Origin: Gracilimonas sediminicola | GTDB lineage: Bacteria > Bacteroidota > Rhodothermia > Balneolales > Balneolaceae | Assembly (NCBI RefSeq): GCF_024320785.1 | Contig: NZ_JANDBC010000002.1 | Coordinates: 62,001-126,000, forward strand | Direction: 5' to 3' | Length of the DNA: 64,000 nt | Shown: positions 28,925 to 34,967 of the stretch, piece after piece | How the letters are laid out: each line of letters opens with the position of its first letter | How positions within the stretch are numbered: position 1 is the first letter of the stretch | Position numbers and translations under genes: made by a program | Notes under the pieces: generated by a model | The model's database searches: none | Told to the model about the DNA's origin: nothing | The model's input: only the letters and a program-made list of their open reading frames with translations

Positions 28925-30637
28925 TTACCCCACCCGAAACTTCAATTCGTCAATTTTAGAGAGGATCTCGTCCCGGTTCATATCCCGGTATCGTTCAGGG
29001 AGTAATTCCTTGGACGTACATTCAATGACGGCACTGAGAGTCTGAAGCTCTACTTCCTCCGGATAGGTTGGCGGAAGGAAATCGGCCAGTGCAGCATCCA
29101 GAACTTCCGGGGTTACTTTCTTCTTGCCTTCTGCAGCTGCACGGAATTTGGCCCGGGTTAAAGCTGCTTCCATATCTGCACCGGAAAAGGTTTTAAAGCC
29201 TTCTTCGATTACCGCAGGAATGTATTTCTCAGTCATCTGAAGGCCGGTTTTCTTCCGCATGGCTTCAAAAAGTTCCACACGTTCTTCATTGGTATGAGGC
29301 GGGAACAGGGCAAGGTGTTCCTCGGCTCTTCCCTGTCGTTTCAAGTCAATAGGCATGAGATCGGGGCGGGCCGTCATCAGGAACCATACAATGCGTCCGC
29401 GGTTGGTGGTATCACTCATAAAGGTAGCAATCTGCGAGAATACGCGACTTGAAACCCCGCTGTCTCCGCTTGCATCACGGTCGCCAAGGTAGGCGTCCGC
29501 TTCGTCAATCATAACCGCTACAGGGGCCATAGCTTTAAGTAGAGATAGAATCTTCTCCAGGTTTCCTTCGGTTACCCCCTGCCACTGGCTTCGGAAGTTT
29601 TTGAGTTTCACCATCGGTATGCCCACTTCGCTGGCAAAACAGGTCACTAAAAAGGTTTTACCGGTTCCCACCGGACCGCAAACCAGGTATCCCATGGGCA
29701 TTACATCCTGCCGGCCGGCTTTCAGCGCTTTAACGGATTGGCGTAAATGCTTTTTCACATGGGTATGTCCGGCTACATTATCCAGCGAATACTCGGTTTC
29801 CACGAACTCCAGCAGTCCGTATGCTTCTGCTTCAATCAGTTCCTTTTTGGTTTCGGATAAGCCGTCAAAGGTGATCTTTTCTTTATTCTCCCGGGCATGA
29901 GATAACACGCTTCGGATGTTTACAAAATTCAGGCCTGCCGTTTGTTGAGCTACAATCTCCGGTTTCACTTCCGAAATACCTTTCCAGGTGTCATCCCGGG
30001 TTTCGTAGTCAATAAAATCTCTTCGTTCCTGCTCGGCGGGGATATCAATTTTAATATCCGTGGTGTAAGGATTTTGGACCAGCGTTTTGTTCAGGTCGGC
30101 CAGATTTTCGGTAATCATCACGGTGGTAAAATCGGAAGCCAGGAACATAGGGTCATGGGCCCATCGCGATAAATAGACCATGGAAGTCCGGTCCTCATTC
30201 CCGATAGAAGCCGCGTCGCTCATCGGCACAATGGTCTCGGCATAATCGATGATCAGCGCCACACTTTTCTTTTGATCGAGGCGGAGACGGAAATACTGCT
30301 CCAGCAACGACATCACCCGAACCGGGTCTTTCGGCATTTTCTTGGCATATTCGGTGCCCACCAAACTATCCCGCCCGGCAATGGCCTGATTGAAATCAGC
30401 CTGAGACTCTTTATCCCGGAAATAGATACCGGAAGCGCGATCGTAGAAAATCACAAAGTCGCGAGCACCGAAAAATTCATCCGAAAGAAAGGATTTAAGG
30501 CGGTGAAATTCTGTTCCTTCATCGGTTTTCAGAGAAACCAGGTCATGAACGTTTCCGTGCAGTATAAACTGATTAATGGTTCTGCTCAGATACTTCCGGG
30601 CAAATTCGCGCGACCATTTTGGGTAGTGATCAAACAT
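28925..30637 (-). CDS. AAA+ ATPase, Ycf46-like two-domain architecture
   Basis: A 570-residue cytoplasmic protein. The N-terminal half (about 1-240) looks like a degenerate P-loop domain: no Walker A, but a Walker B-like strand SVALIIDYAETIV and a sensor-like MITENLADLN. The C-terminal half is a complete AAA+ module: Walker A CGPVGTGKT (about residue 320), FRSQWQGVTEGNLEKIL (pore and SRH-side helix), Walker B VAVMIDEADAYL, sensor 1 FLMTARPDLMP and arginine finger KRQGRAEEHL. A lid domain and a C-terminal helical tail follow. A dead first and active second domain is the Ycf46 plan. Such proteins are probably remodelling ATPases, with no established client. It is downstream of the PspA gene set, with other genes between, so functional coupling is only suggested. 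Confidence 0.82.
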   Translation of the reverse strand: MFDHYPKWSREFARKYLSRTINQFILHGNVHDLVSLKTDEGTEFHRLKSFLSDEFFGARDFVIFYDRASGIYFRDKESQADFNQAIAGRDSLVGTEYAKKMPKDPVRVMSLLEQYFRLRLDQKKSVALIIDYAETIVPMSDAASIGNEDRTSMVYLSRWAHDPMFLASDFTTVMITENLADLNKTLVQNPYTTDIKIDIPAEQERRDFIDYETRDDTWKGISEVKPEIVAQQTAGLNFVNIRSVLSHARENKEKITFDGLSETKKELIEAEAYGLLEFVETEYSLDNVAGHTHVKKHLRQSVKALKAGRQDVMPMGYLVCGPVGTGKTFLVTCFASEVGIPMVKLKNFRSQWQGVTEGNLEKILSLLKAMAPVAVMIDEADAYLGDRDASGDSGVSSRVFSQIATFMSDTTNRGRIVWFLMTARPDLMPIDLKRQGRAEEHLALFPPHTNEERVELFEAMRKKTGLQMTEKYIPAVIEEGFKTFSGADMEAALTRAKFRAAAEGKKKVTPEVLDAALADFLPPTYPEEVELQTLSAVIECTSKELLPERYRDMNRDEILSKIDELKFRVG

Positions 30638-30661: not shown

Positions 30662-30715
30662 AGTAACAAAGTTACATAGTGCAAAGCTTCTTTGTCACTA
30701 TGTAACTTTGTTACT
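30662..30715. repeat. Long near-perfect inverted repeat
   Basis: Arms of about 25 bases: AGTAACAAAGTTACATAGTG (30662-30681) pairs perfectly with CACTATGTAACTTTGTTACT (30696-30715). The pairing continues inward through CAAAG/CTTTG with one bulged base, leaving a three-base loop. Each arm also contains its own small palindrome GTAAC-AAA-GTTAC. It overlaps the last bases of the CBS-protein gene and lies upstream of the AAA+ gene start, so it may terminate or attenuate transcription between them. Confidence 0.85.
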
Positions 30716-31988
30716 CGATTAAAATGAGCTTAACCGTTTCAATGCGGCTGGGTGTGGCTTTACTGATAATGAATTTTTTGCCCTCAATCACCACTTCCTC
30801 ATTTACTTTTGGAATACGCCCTAAATGATTGATAATGAATCCCGCTACGGTATCATACTGAGAAGGTTCCAGCGGAAGTTCAATTTCTTCAAATTTTTCC
30901 ATCAGCTCATGAATCTCCACATTTCCGCTTACCACATAGGTATTTTCGGAAAGCTTCTTCATAATTTCATCTTCCACATCATATTCGTCCTGAATATCCC
31001 CTACTACCTCTTCCAGCAGATCTTCGATGGTGACCATTCCGGCGGTCCCTCCATATTCATCCAGAACAATGGCTACCGACATATTCGACTGGCGGAATTC
31101 GGTAAGCAAAGCTTTCGATTTTTTACTGGACGGCACCAGCTTTACCGGGCGTATAATCTCGTTCAGGGATTTGGGTGAATGGAAAAAATCGTGCGCAAAC
31201 ACAACACCAATCACATCGTCAATAGATTCCCTGTACACCGGGAGCTTGGAATGGCCGGATTGTATAAACATATTCAGCACTTCTTCAATAGGCGCATCTT
31301 TCTCAACCGCTTCAATTTCAATGCGGGGTATCATAGAGTCTTTAACCCGCTTATTGGAAAGCTCCAGTACATTGTGCAGAATCTCGGAGTCATCCTCGTC
31401 AATATCTTCACTCCCCCCGCTGTCCCTCAGTTCTTTGAAGATCATTTCCACATCCTGCCTCCGATAGTAGCTTTCAACCACCTCAGCATCGCTTACCAGC
31501 CAGCGAATCAGGATATTGGATGAACCCTTTGAAATTTCGATAAGCGGGCGAAACAGGTAATAGGCAATCCGAAGAGGAATCGAAATAACGGCGATCATAT
31601 TATCAGCCAATGCCCGGAAAATAGCTTTGGGCAAAATCTCCCCGAACAACATAATGACCACAGATGCGATAATGGTCTGTATAATCAGGATCTGTATTTC
31701 AGAAGGGACCAAACCAAACCAGGCTTCGCTGTACACTTGGATAGGCTCAACCAGAAATATGGCCATAAACGTAGCGTAAAGCACGTTTACAATGTTATTC
31801 CCAACCAGCGTCGTAGTTAAGAAAGTCTCCGGTTTGCGTGTAAAAAACTCAATTGAGTTGGACAGAAAGTTGTTCTTGCGTGAAGCAACTTCCAGCTTAA
31901 GCTTATTAGCCGTAACAAAGGCAATTTCCGATCCAGAGAAAAAGCCACTCAGAAGAACAGTTATGAAAATCAGGGCAAACTCAATCAT
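30711..31988 (-). CDS. CNNM/CorC-HlyC family membrane protein with CBS domains
   Basis: A 425-residue protein. The N-terminal CNNM (DUF21) domain has about four membrane segments and begins MIEFALIFITVLLSGFFSGSEIAF, with the conserved SGSE(I/M)A motif that lines the transport site in CNNM/CorC magnesium exporters. A paired CBS domain (about 205-330; DSMIPRIEIEAVEKDAPIEEVL and MSVAIVLDEYGGTAGMVTIEDLLEE) is followed by a C-terminal CorC_HlyC domain (about 340-420). The role is probably Mg2+ or Co2+ efflux, or regulation of membrane ion balance. The old name hemolysin is misleading. It is on the same strand as the PspA set. The long inverted repeat marks its 3' end. Confidence 0.92.
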   Translation of the reverse strand: MIEFALIFITVLLSGFFSGSEIAFVTANKLKLEVASRKNNFLSNSIEFFTRKPETFLTTTLVGNNIVNVLYATFMAIFLVEPIQVYSEAWFGLVPSEIQILIIQTIIASVVIMLFGEILPKAIFRALADNMIAVISIPLRIAYYLFRPLIEISKGSSNILIRWLVSDAEVVESYYRRQDVEMIFKELRDSGGSEDIDEDDSEILHNVLELSNKRVKDSMIPRIEIEAVEKDAPIEEVLNMFIQSGHSKLPVYRESIDDVIGVVFAHDFFHSPKSLNEIIRPVKLVPSSKKSKALLTEFRQSNMSVAIVLDEYGGTAGMVTIEDLLEEVVGDIQDEYDVEDEIMKKLSENTYVVSGNVEIHELMEKFEEIELPLEPSQYDTVAGFIINHLGRIPKVNEEVVIEGKKFIISKATPSRIETVKLILIE

Positions 31989-32076: not shown

Positions 32077-32856
32077 CTATTTACCGGAGAAATTAGGTTT
32101 TCTCTTTTCAAGAAAAGCGCCGGTACCTTCCTTAAAATCAGCCGTACCGCATAATTCTCCAAACAGCCGGGCTTCGGATTCAAATCCTTTTCCGGAACCG
32201 GCTTCCTGAACGGCCCTAATAGCGTTTTTAATAGCTAAAGGGCCTTGCTTCATGATTTTAGTCAGCATTGATTTGGCCTCATCAATCGCGGAATGTTCTG
32301 TCACCTGATTTACCAAACCGATTTCAAAAGCCTCATCTGCTTTTACCTGCCGGCCGGTCATAATCAATTCCAGAGCCTTACCGCGACCTACAAGCCGGGT
32401 GAGTCGCTGCGTGCCGCCATAACCGGGAATCAGTCCCAGGCTAACTTCCGGCAACCCGAAAGCGGCCTTTTCGAAAGCAATTCTTAGATGGCAGGCCATA
32501 GCCAGTTCACAACCCCCGCCAAGGGCATACCCGTTTACGGCTGCAATCACGGGAATGGTCAGGTCTTCAATCTTTTGAAAAATATCCTGTCCTTTTTTGG
32601 ATACTTTTTCTCCGGAAACCGGATCCAGCGAGCTCAGCTCTTTGATATCTGCGCCGGCCACAAAAGCTTTTTCACCGGCTCCGGTAATCACCAGCGACTT
32701 GACCTGGTAATTCTCTTTGATGTCATCAATAGCCTGATCGAGCTCATCCAGCACCTGATTGTTGAGGGCGTTGAGTTTATCGGGGCGGTTAATGGTAAGC
32801 GTGCAAATGCCTGATTCATCGACTTCTACAAGAAGCGTTTCGTAAATCTGGTCCAT
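32077..32856 (-). CDS. Enoyl-CoA hydratase / crotonase family
   Basis: A 259-residue crotonase-fold enzyme that adds water to trans-enoyl-CoA. The oxyanion-hole segment AFVAGADIKELSS is typical. Both catalytic Glu are present in canonical places: ALGGGCELAMACHLRIA and GLPEVSLGLIPGYGGTQRL, which favours true hydratase activity over other crotonase chemistries. The C-terminus has FGELCGTADFKEGTGAFLEKRKP, the standard closing helix. The likely role is fatty-acid beta-oxidation or short-chain (crotonyl-CoA) metabolism. It follows the membrane coiled-coil gene of the PspA set by three bases, so it is probably transcribed with it, although the function seems unrelated. Confidence 0.93.
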   Translation of the reverse strand: MDQIYETLLVEVDESGICTLTINRPDKLNALNNQVLDELDQAIDDIKENYQVKSLVITGAGEKAFVAGADIKELSSLDPVSGEKVSKKGQDIFQKIEDLTIPVIAAVNGYALGGGCELAMACHLRIAFEKAAFGLPEVSLGLIPGYGGTQRLTRLVGRGKALELIMTGRQVKADEAFEIGLVNQVTEHSAIDEAKSMLTKIMKQGPLAIKNAIRAVQEAGSGKGFESEARLFGELCGTADFKEGTGAFLEKRKPNFSGK

Positions 32857-32859
32857 ATT

Positions 32860-33744
32860 CTATTCTTTGACTTTCTTAGCGGGTTTTATTTCCGTTTGTA
32901 CCTCATCAGAGAGTTCATCCAAAATGGAATCAAAATCCAGATCGTTCTCCCATTCGGTAGTGTACTCGGGTAAAATATCCTGATCTAAGTCGTCAATCAA
33001 TTGTGAAGTTTCTTCTACTTCGGTCAGCAGGTTATCAAGCTGGAAGCCGATCTCTTCCGGGTTGCTCATGGTCATAGACTGCTCGTAGATATACCTGACG
33101 GCATCTTCGATGGTTTCCAGATGCGTTTCGCAAACCAGGTATTTCTCTTTGGCAACGTTAAATTTCTTGAGTCGCTTTTGCATAATGGCAACACGGCGGG
33201 CTTTTGTGCGCTTCAGCTTCTCTGATTCCAGCGTCTTGATTTCTTCAATTTGCCGTATCACTTCTTCCTTCAGGCTGCTTTCCAGAGACGTGTTCAAATA
33301 CACTTCGTAGCGTTTAATCAGGTCAAGCAGGGTCAGATAATTTCCGAGCAGTTCGTCGATCTTCTTCCCGATGTTATCCAGCAGGCCCTGCGAGCTGTAT
33401 GGTAATTTCTCGAAGTTTTCCTGTACCAGTTTAGCCAGGTGTTTCAGTACCAGGAATCGTTTTTGGGATTTATTATCAAGCGACTGAAACAGCTCTTTTT
33501 CGTTATTGGCTGCATGGCGTTCTTTAATCTTCTTCAGTTCCAGTTTTTTGCGGAAGCGGGGCAATTTGGGGACAATGCCAAGGTACATGAGTTCCAGGCC
33601 GAATACAGAAGTAAGTAAAAGGCTGGAGAAATCCCCCAAACCGGTCATAAAAAAAGCCGTAAGCGTGGAAACCAGCAGCACCCCTAAGTTGATGGGGTTC
33701 ATGAAGGCTTCCCGGGTATAATTGATATTCAGTTCGTCACTCAT
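32860..33744 (-). CDS. Membrane-anchored coiled-coil protein of the PspA set
   Basis: A 294-residue protein of unknown function. Two close hydrophobic segments near the N-terminus (about 18-35 and 40-60: GVLLVSTLTAFFMTGLGDF, LLLTSVFGLELMYLGI) form a helical hairpin in the inner membrane. After that comes a long cytoplasmic region of charged helices (about 65-240), including IEEIKTLESEKLKRTKARR, and an acidic tail ending PAKKVKE. Its start overlaps the stop of the mini-PspA gene by 4 bases, so the three proteins are translationally coupled. I infer that it anchors or recruits the PspA-type proteins to the membrane. There is no sequence similarity by eye to PspB or PspC, so it would be an alternative membrane partner. 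Confidence 0.72.
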   Translation of the reverse strand: MSDELNINYTREAFMNPINLGVLLVSTLTAFFMTGLGDFSSLLLTSVFGLELMYLGIVPKLPRFRKKLELKKIKERHAANNEKELFQSLDNKSQKRFLVLKHLAKLVQENFEKLPYSSQGLLDNIGKKIDELLGNYLTLLDLIKRYEVYLNTSLESSLKEEVIRQIEEIKTLESEKLKRTKARRVAIMQKRLKKFNVAKEKYLVCETHLETIEDAVRYIYEQSMTMSNPEEIGFQLDNLLTEVEETSQLIDDLDQDILPEYTTEWENDLDFDSILDELSDEVQTEIKPAKKVKE

Positions 33745-34205
33745 GATTCAGGTTCTGATGAATTATCTTTGCTATCTGAAGATGGCTTTTTATTACCAAT
33801 AGTTTTCTCGGTACGGATTTCATCGGCATGTTTTTCGATCTCATTATAGAGCATGCCCATTTCGGCCTTCACTTGCTTCAGAGTCTGCTTGGCTTTCTGC
33901 TTCTTCAGTTCTTCGTCAAGCTCTTCTTTTTTAATTTTACTGCCTGCAGTGGTGTCTTCGTCTTCCAGGCTGTCCATAGCTACATCAAGCCGGGCCTCCA
34001 CGTGAGAGACCTTTTCGCGCACTTTCCCGAGAAACTCATCAACAGTCCCAAGAAGATTGTCAGCATTCATGTTATTGACTGCCTGGGAGATCCTCCCTTT
34101 CTGCTCGGCTCGTTTAAGCCGCTCCTTCGCCTCTTTAATACGCCGATAGTGCTCTTTGTATTCTTCTTTGAGACGTTCCCGTTCTTGTTCACTTTTGCTG
34201 CTCAT
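33741..34205 (-). CDS. Mini-PspA: short coiled-coil paralogue of PspA
   Basis: A 154-residue, highly charged, helical protein. Its C-terminal part (about 65-150; VEARLDVAMDSLEDED, LKQVKAEMGM, IRTEKTIGNKK) lines up with the C-terminal part of the adjacent PspA (NEARMEIALDSIDTE, VEQFKMEMGE, SKTVGNKEKSSS). It lacks the N-terminal amphipathic helix and the long central hairpin of PspA. The N-terminal SKSEQERERLKEEYKEHYRRIKEAKERLKRAEQ is a short coiled coil. It probably arose by duplication and loss, and could co-assemble with or cap PspA rods. It lies 9 bases after pspA and overlaps the next gene. Assignment as a PspA relative rests on my alignment by eye. Confidence 0.7.
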   Translation of the reverse strand: MSSKSEQERERLKEEYKEHYRRIKEAKERLKRAEQKGRISQAVNNMNADNLLGTVDEFLGKVREKVSHVEARLDVAMDSLEDEDTTAGSKIKKEELDEELKKQKAKQTLKQVKAEMGMLYNEIEKHADEIRTEKTIGNKKPSSDSKDNSSEPES

Positions 34206-34214
34206 GGCGATTTC

Positions 34215-34967
34215 CTATGAACTGCTTTTTTCTTTGTTGCCAACAGTTTTAGAGCTGTCTTTTTCCTTAGCCGGTTCTTCTTCATCAATGTTGATGGACC
34301 CGCTCTTCTCACCCATTTCCATCTTGAACTGCTCTACTAAGGACTTGGCGCGCAGTTTCTCAGCATTGGCTTCGATTTCCATGGTTTCAGTATCAATGCT
34401 GTCGAGTGCGATTTCCATACGGGCTTCGTTTTTAGCAGACTGCTCGTTGATTCGGTTAATCATCTCATCGTGAGTAGCATCAATTCCGCCAACCTCAAAC
34501 TGTTCCAGCGTATCCGCAATCTTGGCTTGCCATTCGGAGCGCTCGCTTGCACGCAATGCTTCTTTGGCTTCCTGGATTTTGCGATCTTTTTCACGCATGA
34601 ATACTTTTTTCACCTTAATCGCTTTTTCGTAGGCTTTTTCAGCAAAGGCAAGCTGATCTTTGGTGTGTGCATAATTTTCTTTGGCTTTCTCTAATTGAAG
34701 AGCATATCCCTCGGCAATATCATCACGATCGGCCTGGATGGCGGACTTCACTTTTGCCGTCAAATCCTGAATCGCTTTTTCATTCCGATTCATTTCTTTT
34801 TGGAGCATCAACAGGTTGGCTTTAACCGTAGCGATATTCTCGTTCATCTGGGGAATTTGGTCATTCAGATCCCGGATGTTTTGCTCAAGGATGAGCTTTG
34901 GGTCTTCCATTGAGCTTATTAAGCCACCGAACATGGACTTGATTGCGCGGATAAATCGTTGAAACAT
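34215..34967 (-). CDS. pspA: PspA/IM30 (Vipp1) family membrane-stress protein
   Basis: A 250-residue ESCRT-III-like protein that coats and stabilises the inner membrane. The N-terminal amphipathic helix MFQRFIRAIKSMFGGLISSM is followed by EDPKLILEQNIRDLNDQIPQM. The long alpha-hairpin runs from about 30 to 150, then comes the C-terminal helix group with EMINRINEQSAKNEARMEIALDS. The family usually runs 220-260 residues, so this is full length. It ends in a Ser/Lys/Glu-rich tail. It heads a coupled set with a mini-PspA and a membrane coiled-coil protein. No PspF, PspB or PspC is seen, so control differs from the E. coli system. Confidence 0.93.
   Translation of the reverse strand: MFQRFIRAIKSMFGGLISSMEDPKLILEQNIRDLNDQIPQMNENIATVKANLLMLQKEMNRNEKAIQDLTAKVKSAIQADRDDIAEGYALQLEKAKENYAHTKDQLAFAEKAYEKAIKVKKVFMREKDRKIQEAKEALRASERSEWQAKIADTLEQFEVGGIDATHDEMINRINEQSAKNEARMEIALDSIDTETMEIEANAEKLRAKSLVEQFKMEMGEKSGSINIDEEEPAKEKDSSKTVGNKEKSSS

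Follow-up and report, generated by a model that had tools for sequence, protein, structure and literature searches.

A PspA operon of Gracilimonas sediminicola with a truncated PspA paralogue, a Cdc48-like AAA+ ATPase and a C-terminal tag that is lost together with the ATPase

The window that we analysed is a stretch of 64,000 nt of Gracilimonas sediminicola (Balneolales, Rhodothermia, Bacteroidota; NZ_JANDBC010000002.1, 62,001-126,000, forward strand), and it carries an operon in which pspA, the gene of a bacterial protein of membrane repair related to eukaryotic ESCRT-III, a truncated pspA paralogue (mini-PspA) and the gene of a membrane coiled-coil protein (TMCC) belong with the gene of a Cdc48-like AAA+ ATPase. 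PspA and mini-PspA have a four-residue C-terminal tag in common, and where the ATPase was lost the tag vanished with it, a pattern suggestive of a machine that corresponds in bacteria to ESCRT-III/Vps4. The genes, their paralogy and conservation, the architecture of the ATPase, the tag, its exclusivity and its joint loss with the ATPase are what the analysis established. Our main reading, to which we give a probability of about 0.6, is that the operon encodes a membrane-remodelling machine working like ESCRT-III and Vps4, in which the ATPase would engage the tag to remodel PspA polymers and mini-PspA would be an accessory that recruits the ATPase or caps the polymer.

Gene layout and the encoded proteins

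A first-pass annotation had described three genes at 32860-34967. They are real and positioned as it said, all on the minus strand: pspA (250 aa; 34215-34967), mini-PspA (154 aa; 33741-34205) and TMCC (294 aa; 32860-33744). The gap between pspA and mini-PspA is of 9 bases, and the 4-base overlap claimed for the last two genes is there (ATGA, 33741-33744). While the span was right for the trio, the unit is larger and extends to the ATPase gene (28925-30637) and a terminator. After a gap of 3 bases, TMCC is followed on the same strand by ECH, an enoyl-CoA hydratase/isomerase family gene (32077-32856; PF00378, 1e-66), then by the gene of a CNNM/CorC-like membrane protein (30711-31988; PF01595, PF03471 and CBS domains), the ATPase gene and, just 3' of it, a terminator-like hairpin of 13 pairs and a T run (28892-28864), which was recognised by pattern match only. 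The ECH and CNNM genes thus separate the ATPase gene from the trio; both are conserved in place, and ECH stays there in genomes without the ATPase. Though conserved in place, they are probably not part of the machine.

The window PspA is a full-length PspA/IM30 protein of the ESCRT-III superfamily: it scored 59.4 bits against PF04012 (cut-off 33.9), and it could be aligned with Vipp1 structures from end to end, nearly every residue having a counterpart (residues 1-202 against 7o3w). Mini-PspA had been proposed to be a truncated paralogue keeping the C-terminal half, and comparison of profiles (28 minis, 21 PspAs) with hhalign agreed, placing mini-PspA residues 17-121 on PspA residues 125-223 with a probability of 98.5 and an E-value of 2.3e-15. 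In a single-sequence phmmer search, mini-PspA also matched the PspA of its own genome at 1.8e-8, and the motif pairs quoted earlier, EARLDVAMDS/EARMEIALDS and KxEMG (here KAEMG/KMEMG), are present in the two proteins. The paralogue, whose gene position is conserved, retains the end of the hairpin, the alpha4-alpha5 region and the tail; it is no full PspA domain, as the alpha0 membrane helix and most of the alpha1-alpha3 hairpin, alpha1 included, are missing. The window mini-PspA had no Pfam match, neither PF04012 nor Snf7 was matched by any of the 28 minis searched, and a PDB profile search with mini-PspA gave no useful match. Truncations have shown that alpha5 of Vipp1 (residues 192-219) is essential for polymer formation, and alpha5 of one Vipp1/PspA subunit grips the hairpin of the subunit three places on (PMC8281802). 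Since this hairpin-gripping region is kept, the earlier proposal that mini-PspA caps or regulates PspA polymers is reasonable.

TMCC belongs to no known family. Its AF2 model (pLDDT 77) shows helices 17-32 and 39-60 as a membrane hairpin with long helices after it, and its mean column identity is 47%. There was no Pfam match over the cut-off for TMCC and no Snf7 (PF03357) among the Pfam matches of 25 members; a PDB profile search gave no useful match, and a fold search gave no significant PDB match, just generic coiled coils and BAR-like bundles at Z <= 11.4. As such values are below the meaningful level for helical bundles, we draw no claim from them. The idea that TMCC is PspA-like or Snf7-like was dropped as lacking sequence support (hhalign probability against PspA, 5.8). 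TMCC carries no tag and persists in genomes without the ATPase (a subclade of f3); because it stays without both the ATPase and mini-PspA, its most likely role is with PspA itself, which it would anchor at the membrane or serve as a membrane sensor.

The ATPase (570 aa) consists of two AAA domains, of which the first is degenerate and the second intact. Its AF2 model (pLDDT 83) matched the Cdc48/p97 D1-D2 tandem over the whole length (Foldseek E 2e-20), and PF00004 was found at residues 318-442 (1.6e-24). By its motifs and fold, the first domain (about residues 20-272; 29822-30580, minus strand) has no Walker A and shows DY or DF in place of the Walker B DE, its Walker B region reading IIDYAET against MIDEADA in the second. 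The second domain has a Walker A, GPVGTGKT (residues 321-328; 29654-29677, minus strand), and this motif and IDEAD were invariant in 18 of 18 sequences; in 17 of them Walker A occurs solely at about position 321, the remaining one (L059) having an extra chance match at 247. We read an invariant QWQG in the alignment as the equivalent of pore loop 1 in the classic AAA unfoldases. The protein is not a Vps4, since it has two AAA domains and a Pfam search gave no match to the MIT domain in it. Among the matches listed, its closest are from Gracilimonas and other Balneolaceae. Distant relatives (29-32% identity) are also encoded on large Bacillota plasmids (L324 5971-7602, L325 5695-7317, L323 7716-9293), with no annotated PspA near them and neighbours mostly annotated as hypothetical; we read these as another use of the two-AAA ATPase family.

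Conservation of the gene set, and the joint loss of tag and ATPase

A survey of gene order confirmed that the gene set is conserved, with pspA, mini-PspA and TMCC kept together across the whole class. In Balneolales the order D2HDH (on the opposite strand), PYNP, pspA, mini-PspA, TMCC, ECH, CNNM and ATPase is nearly fixed. In the rest of Rhodothermia the ATPase gene is found away from the trio, and ATPase and pspA locus still co-occur. Of 345 genomes sampled from the phylum, 87 have the ATPase and 86 have TMCC, the two sets being virtually identical; apart from one ATPase-bearing genome of another class (G314), they are Rhodothermia, and in a wider scan for the system the best 80 loci listed were all from Rhodothermia.

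In G314 a TMCC relative (E 4e-16) precedes the ATPase gene and the gene of a helical 236-aa protein follows it (L262 7860-10411), while a short contig (L263 1964-3143) carries pspA with a near-copy of this protein encoded ahead of it. The helical protein is possibly a substitute for mini-PspA, and the PspA tail ends in KKEIGPQTEGQ, with a tag-like KKEIG that has E in place of T or S. The gene neighbourhood in G314 speaks for our main reading; against it count the E in the tag, the isolation of this genome in its class and its fragmented assembly (about 420 contigs, 3% contamination). PspA and the ATPase gave no match in G023, G024, G029, G412 and G052; mini-PspA and TMCC, searched for in all of these but G412, were missing there too. 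The four family f1 genomes in this set are small (1.5 to 2.4 Mb) and G052 is not. We also observed in-frame stops in the mini-PspA (TAG) and ATPase (TAG) genes of G044 (C152) and in the TMCC gene (TAA) of G116 (C1), which reflect either assembly errors or beginning decay.

The tag, K-[TS]-[ILVM]-G, is common to the tails of PspA and mini-PspA. In the window PspA it reads KTVG (residues 240-243 of 250; 34239-34250, minus strand), and in mini-PspA KTIG (residues 134-137; 33795-33806, minus strand), with two copies in many relatives. Across 58 PspA tails, the four columns are K in 98% and T or S, I/V/L/M and G in 100% each, against 21-45% identity in the flanking columns; the tag lies 6 to 11 residues before the end of PspA, amid a variable charged tail. 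In mini-PspA, K134 of the tag is one of four columns that are invariant in 28 sequences. The motif is also close to exclusive: in the loci retrieved (889 ORFs), PspA and mini-PspA made up 73 of the 74 proteins with a C-terminal match, the other being a different protein, and among 1082 ORFs of the window's genome (1.22 Mb, a 34% sample) the broad tag pattern was confined to these two. A search of open-licence papers for a KTIG/KTVG motif gave nothing relevant.

We then compared the presence of tag and ATPase in 80 loci, of which 78 were scored and two, at contig ends, were left out. Wherever the ATPase was present, PspA, mini-PspA or both carried the tag (62 of 62 loci); where the ATPase was absent and PspA kept, both the tag and mini-PspA were missing (0/16 for each). 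These 16 loci represent two independent joint losses, too few for a sign test to be significant. Mapped on the tree, ATPase and tag change two times each, on identical branches, and mini-PspA changes five times. One loss comprises 15 loci of a subclade of f3, whose PspA tails are untagged (e.g. QNTVHVNRTNHV). The other is that of G012, which has a shortened PspA tail and no mini-PspA, TMCC or ATPase; both ATPase and tag are present in other members of its genus, the 3' part of the ATPase gene (FIPPTYPEEVELQTLLAVLECTSKE) can still be read behind CNNM (L049 4500-5110), and the loss is recent.

It is very unlikely, in our judgement, that shared ancestry alone accounts for this pattern, with genes co-inherited in the class and both joint losses reflecting the general decay of a dispensable region. 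Such an explanation is helped by there being just two loss events, by the long branch of the larger ATPase-less clade (part of f3) and by the fact that G012 lost TMCC too. However, in f3 the non-adjacent mini-PspA and ATPase genes and the four tag residues of PspA are gone while TMCC, ECH and CNNM are kept in order, and the tag persists in those lineages of the class in which the ATPase is unlinked.

The ATPase is tracked by the tag and not by mini-PspA, as follows from two further sets of loci. Mini-PspA was lost alone three more times (in L089 and G124, in L102 and G344, and in L237 and L238), with ATPase and PspA tag retained each time where the tail was read; and in four loci with the ATPase (L088, L092, L100 and L106) PspA is untagged and mini-PspA has two tag-like copies. 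The three lineages that keep the ATPase without mini-PspA rule out a strict mutual dependence of the two and, as they also keep the PspA tag and the membrane protein, show that mini-PspA is dispensable. The reverse case, mini-PspA without the ATPase, never occurred in the 78 scored loci. This bears on a quite unlikely alternative in which the main role of mini-PspA is to cap PspA rods or end their chains, as the first-pass annotation had suggested for capping, and the ATPase has some other task: mini-PspA does keep the alpha5 region, through which a subunit docks on the hairpin of its neighbour, and has little of a hairpin of its own, but it is never found without the ATPase, and the most conserved feature of its tail is the tag common to PspA.

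The residues of the tag allow yet another reading, in which it is the site for a different partner (an FHA-like protein, for instance, could recognise it as a peptide phosphorylated on Ser/Thr), and the ATPase disappeared together with the pathway concerned, without any contact of its own with the tag. The second position is indeed always T or S (44 T and 14 S in the 58 tails), with E in G314. We nonetheless consider this unlikely, given that the remaining operon genes do not follow the tag (TMCC, ECH and CNNM all stay in the ATPase-less subclade) and that the recent loss in G012 took mini-PspA, TMCC and the ATPase together.

A putative mechanism of ATP-driven remodelling

Because the tag is shared by PspA and mini-PspA and the ATPase co-varies with it, we favour ATP-driven remodelling over passive capping. 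According to our main reading, PspA would form membrane-bound polymers, as is established for the family, and the Cdc48-like AAA+ protein would assemble into a hexamer, one ATPase ring of which is inactive and the other active, and recognise K-[TS]-[ILVM]-G near the end of PspA. The ATPase would then thread PspA subunits through its pore, so that the polymer is remodelled or recycled. Mini-PspA may enter the polymer through its alpha5, possibly as a chain end, and by adding one or two tags it would recruit more ATPase, much as late ESCRT-III subunits recruit Vps4. TMCC, for its part, would hold PspA at the membrane independently of the ATPase. We infer the binding of the tag by the ATPase, the position of PspA as its substrate and the role of mini-PspA from the pattern of conservation and loss; the Bacillota plasmid relatives of the ATPase, with no annotated PspA nearby, count against this reading, as do the small number of independent losses and the two unrelated genes that stand between the trio and the ATPase gene in Balneolales.

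A more specific version, which we hold tentatively and at somewhat less than even odds, would have the system as a functional counterpart, in bacteria, of ESCRT-III/Vps4: the PspA tail, with its dedicated K-[TS]-[ILVM]-G, would be read by the Cdc48-like ATPase, whose first ring is dead, the hairpin-less paralogue with its one or two tags would be the recruiter, and the whole would have evolved in parallel to, and separately from, the MIM-MIT pairing of Vps4.

Comparison with known systems

That PspA neighbours a two-AAA protein is already known. In the passages concerned, Ravi et al. 2024 reported the co-occurrence of PspA with a tandem AAA+ protein whose N-terminal copy is inactive (e.g. AEY64321.1), and proposed for the pair an ATP-dependent membrane remodelling like that of Snf7-VPS4 (PMC11237479). 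By this description the window ATPase matches, with two AAA+ domains, an inactive N-terminal one and co-occurrence with PspA; those passages, however, describe no hairpin-less PspA paralogue, shared tail tag or joint loss. The same source lists a PspA-Snf7-coiled-coil trio in Bacteroidetes (CBH24266.1; PMC11237479). As outlined there, this set of PspA, an ESCRT-III-like partner and a coiled-coil protein is probably the same trio as here, but the partner in our loci resembles PspA, with no Snf7 Pfam match in 28 minis, and TMCC is not detectably PspA-like. We take CBH24266.1 to be from Salinibacter. Searches of open-licence papers turned up neither the tag nor the anatomy of the paralogue nor the joint loss; the tag, the hairpin-less paralogue and the joint loss appear to be new.

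With the PspFABC phage shock system the operon shares PspA. It is not a PspFABC system, having no PspB, PspC or PspF, and in this sense the first-pass annotation was right to call it an alternative. The absence it noted holds for the pspA neighbourhood, where none of pspB, pspC and pspF was found; for PspC it does not extend to the genome, which encodes PspC-domain proteins twice away from pspA (G000:C1:897641-897811 and G000:C3:376575-376751). With Cdc48/p97 the window ATPase shares the D1-D2 tandem fold across its full length; it differs in having no N-terminal substrate domain, a degenerate first AAA domain and 16-20% identity in structural alignments.

Reviews hold that bacteria have no clear Vps4 homologue and that bacterial PspA possibly has no AAA ATPase as a partner (PMC7615534), that bacterial ESCRT-III proteins are often single proteins, and that how PspA polymers are disassembled is unknown (PMC7615534; PMC11746142). 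The operon puts names to the ATPase, to a tag of four residues and to a second subunit of the polymer, and therefore makes the question of PspA disassembly testable; if our main reading is true, ATP-driven remodelling of ESCRT-III polymers extends beyond archaea and eukaryotes. Like the ESCRT-III/Vps4 (CdvB/CdvC) systems of those two groups, the operon combines a polymer protein of the superfamily, a classic AAA+ ATPase and a short C-terminal motif on the subunits; unlike Vps4, which combines one AAA domain with an MIT domain, its ATPase has two AAA domains in tandem, the first of them dead, and the motif in the tail is a different one.
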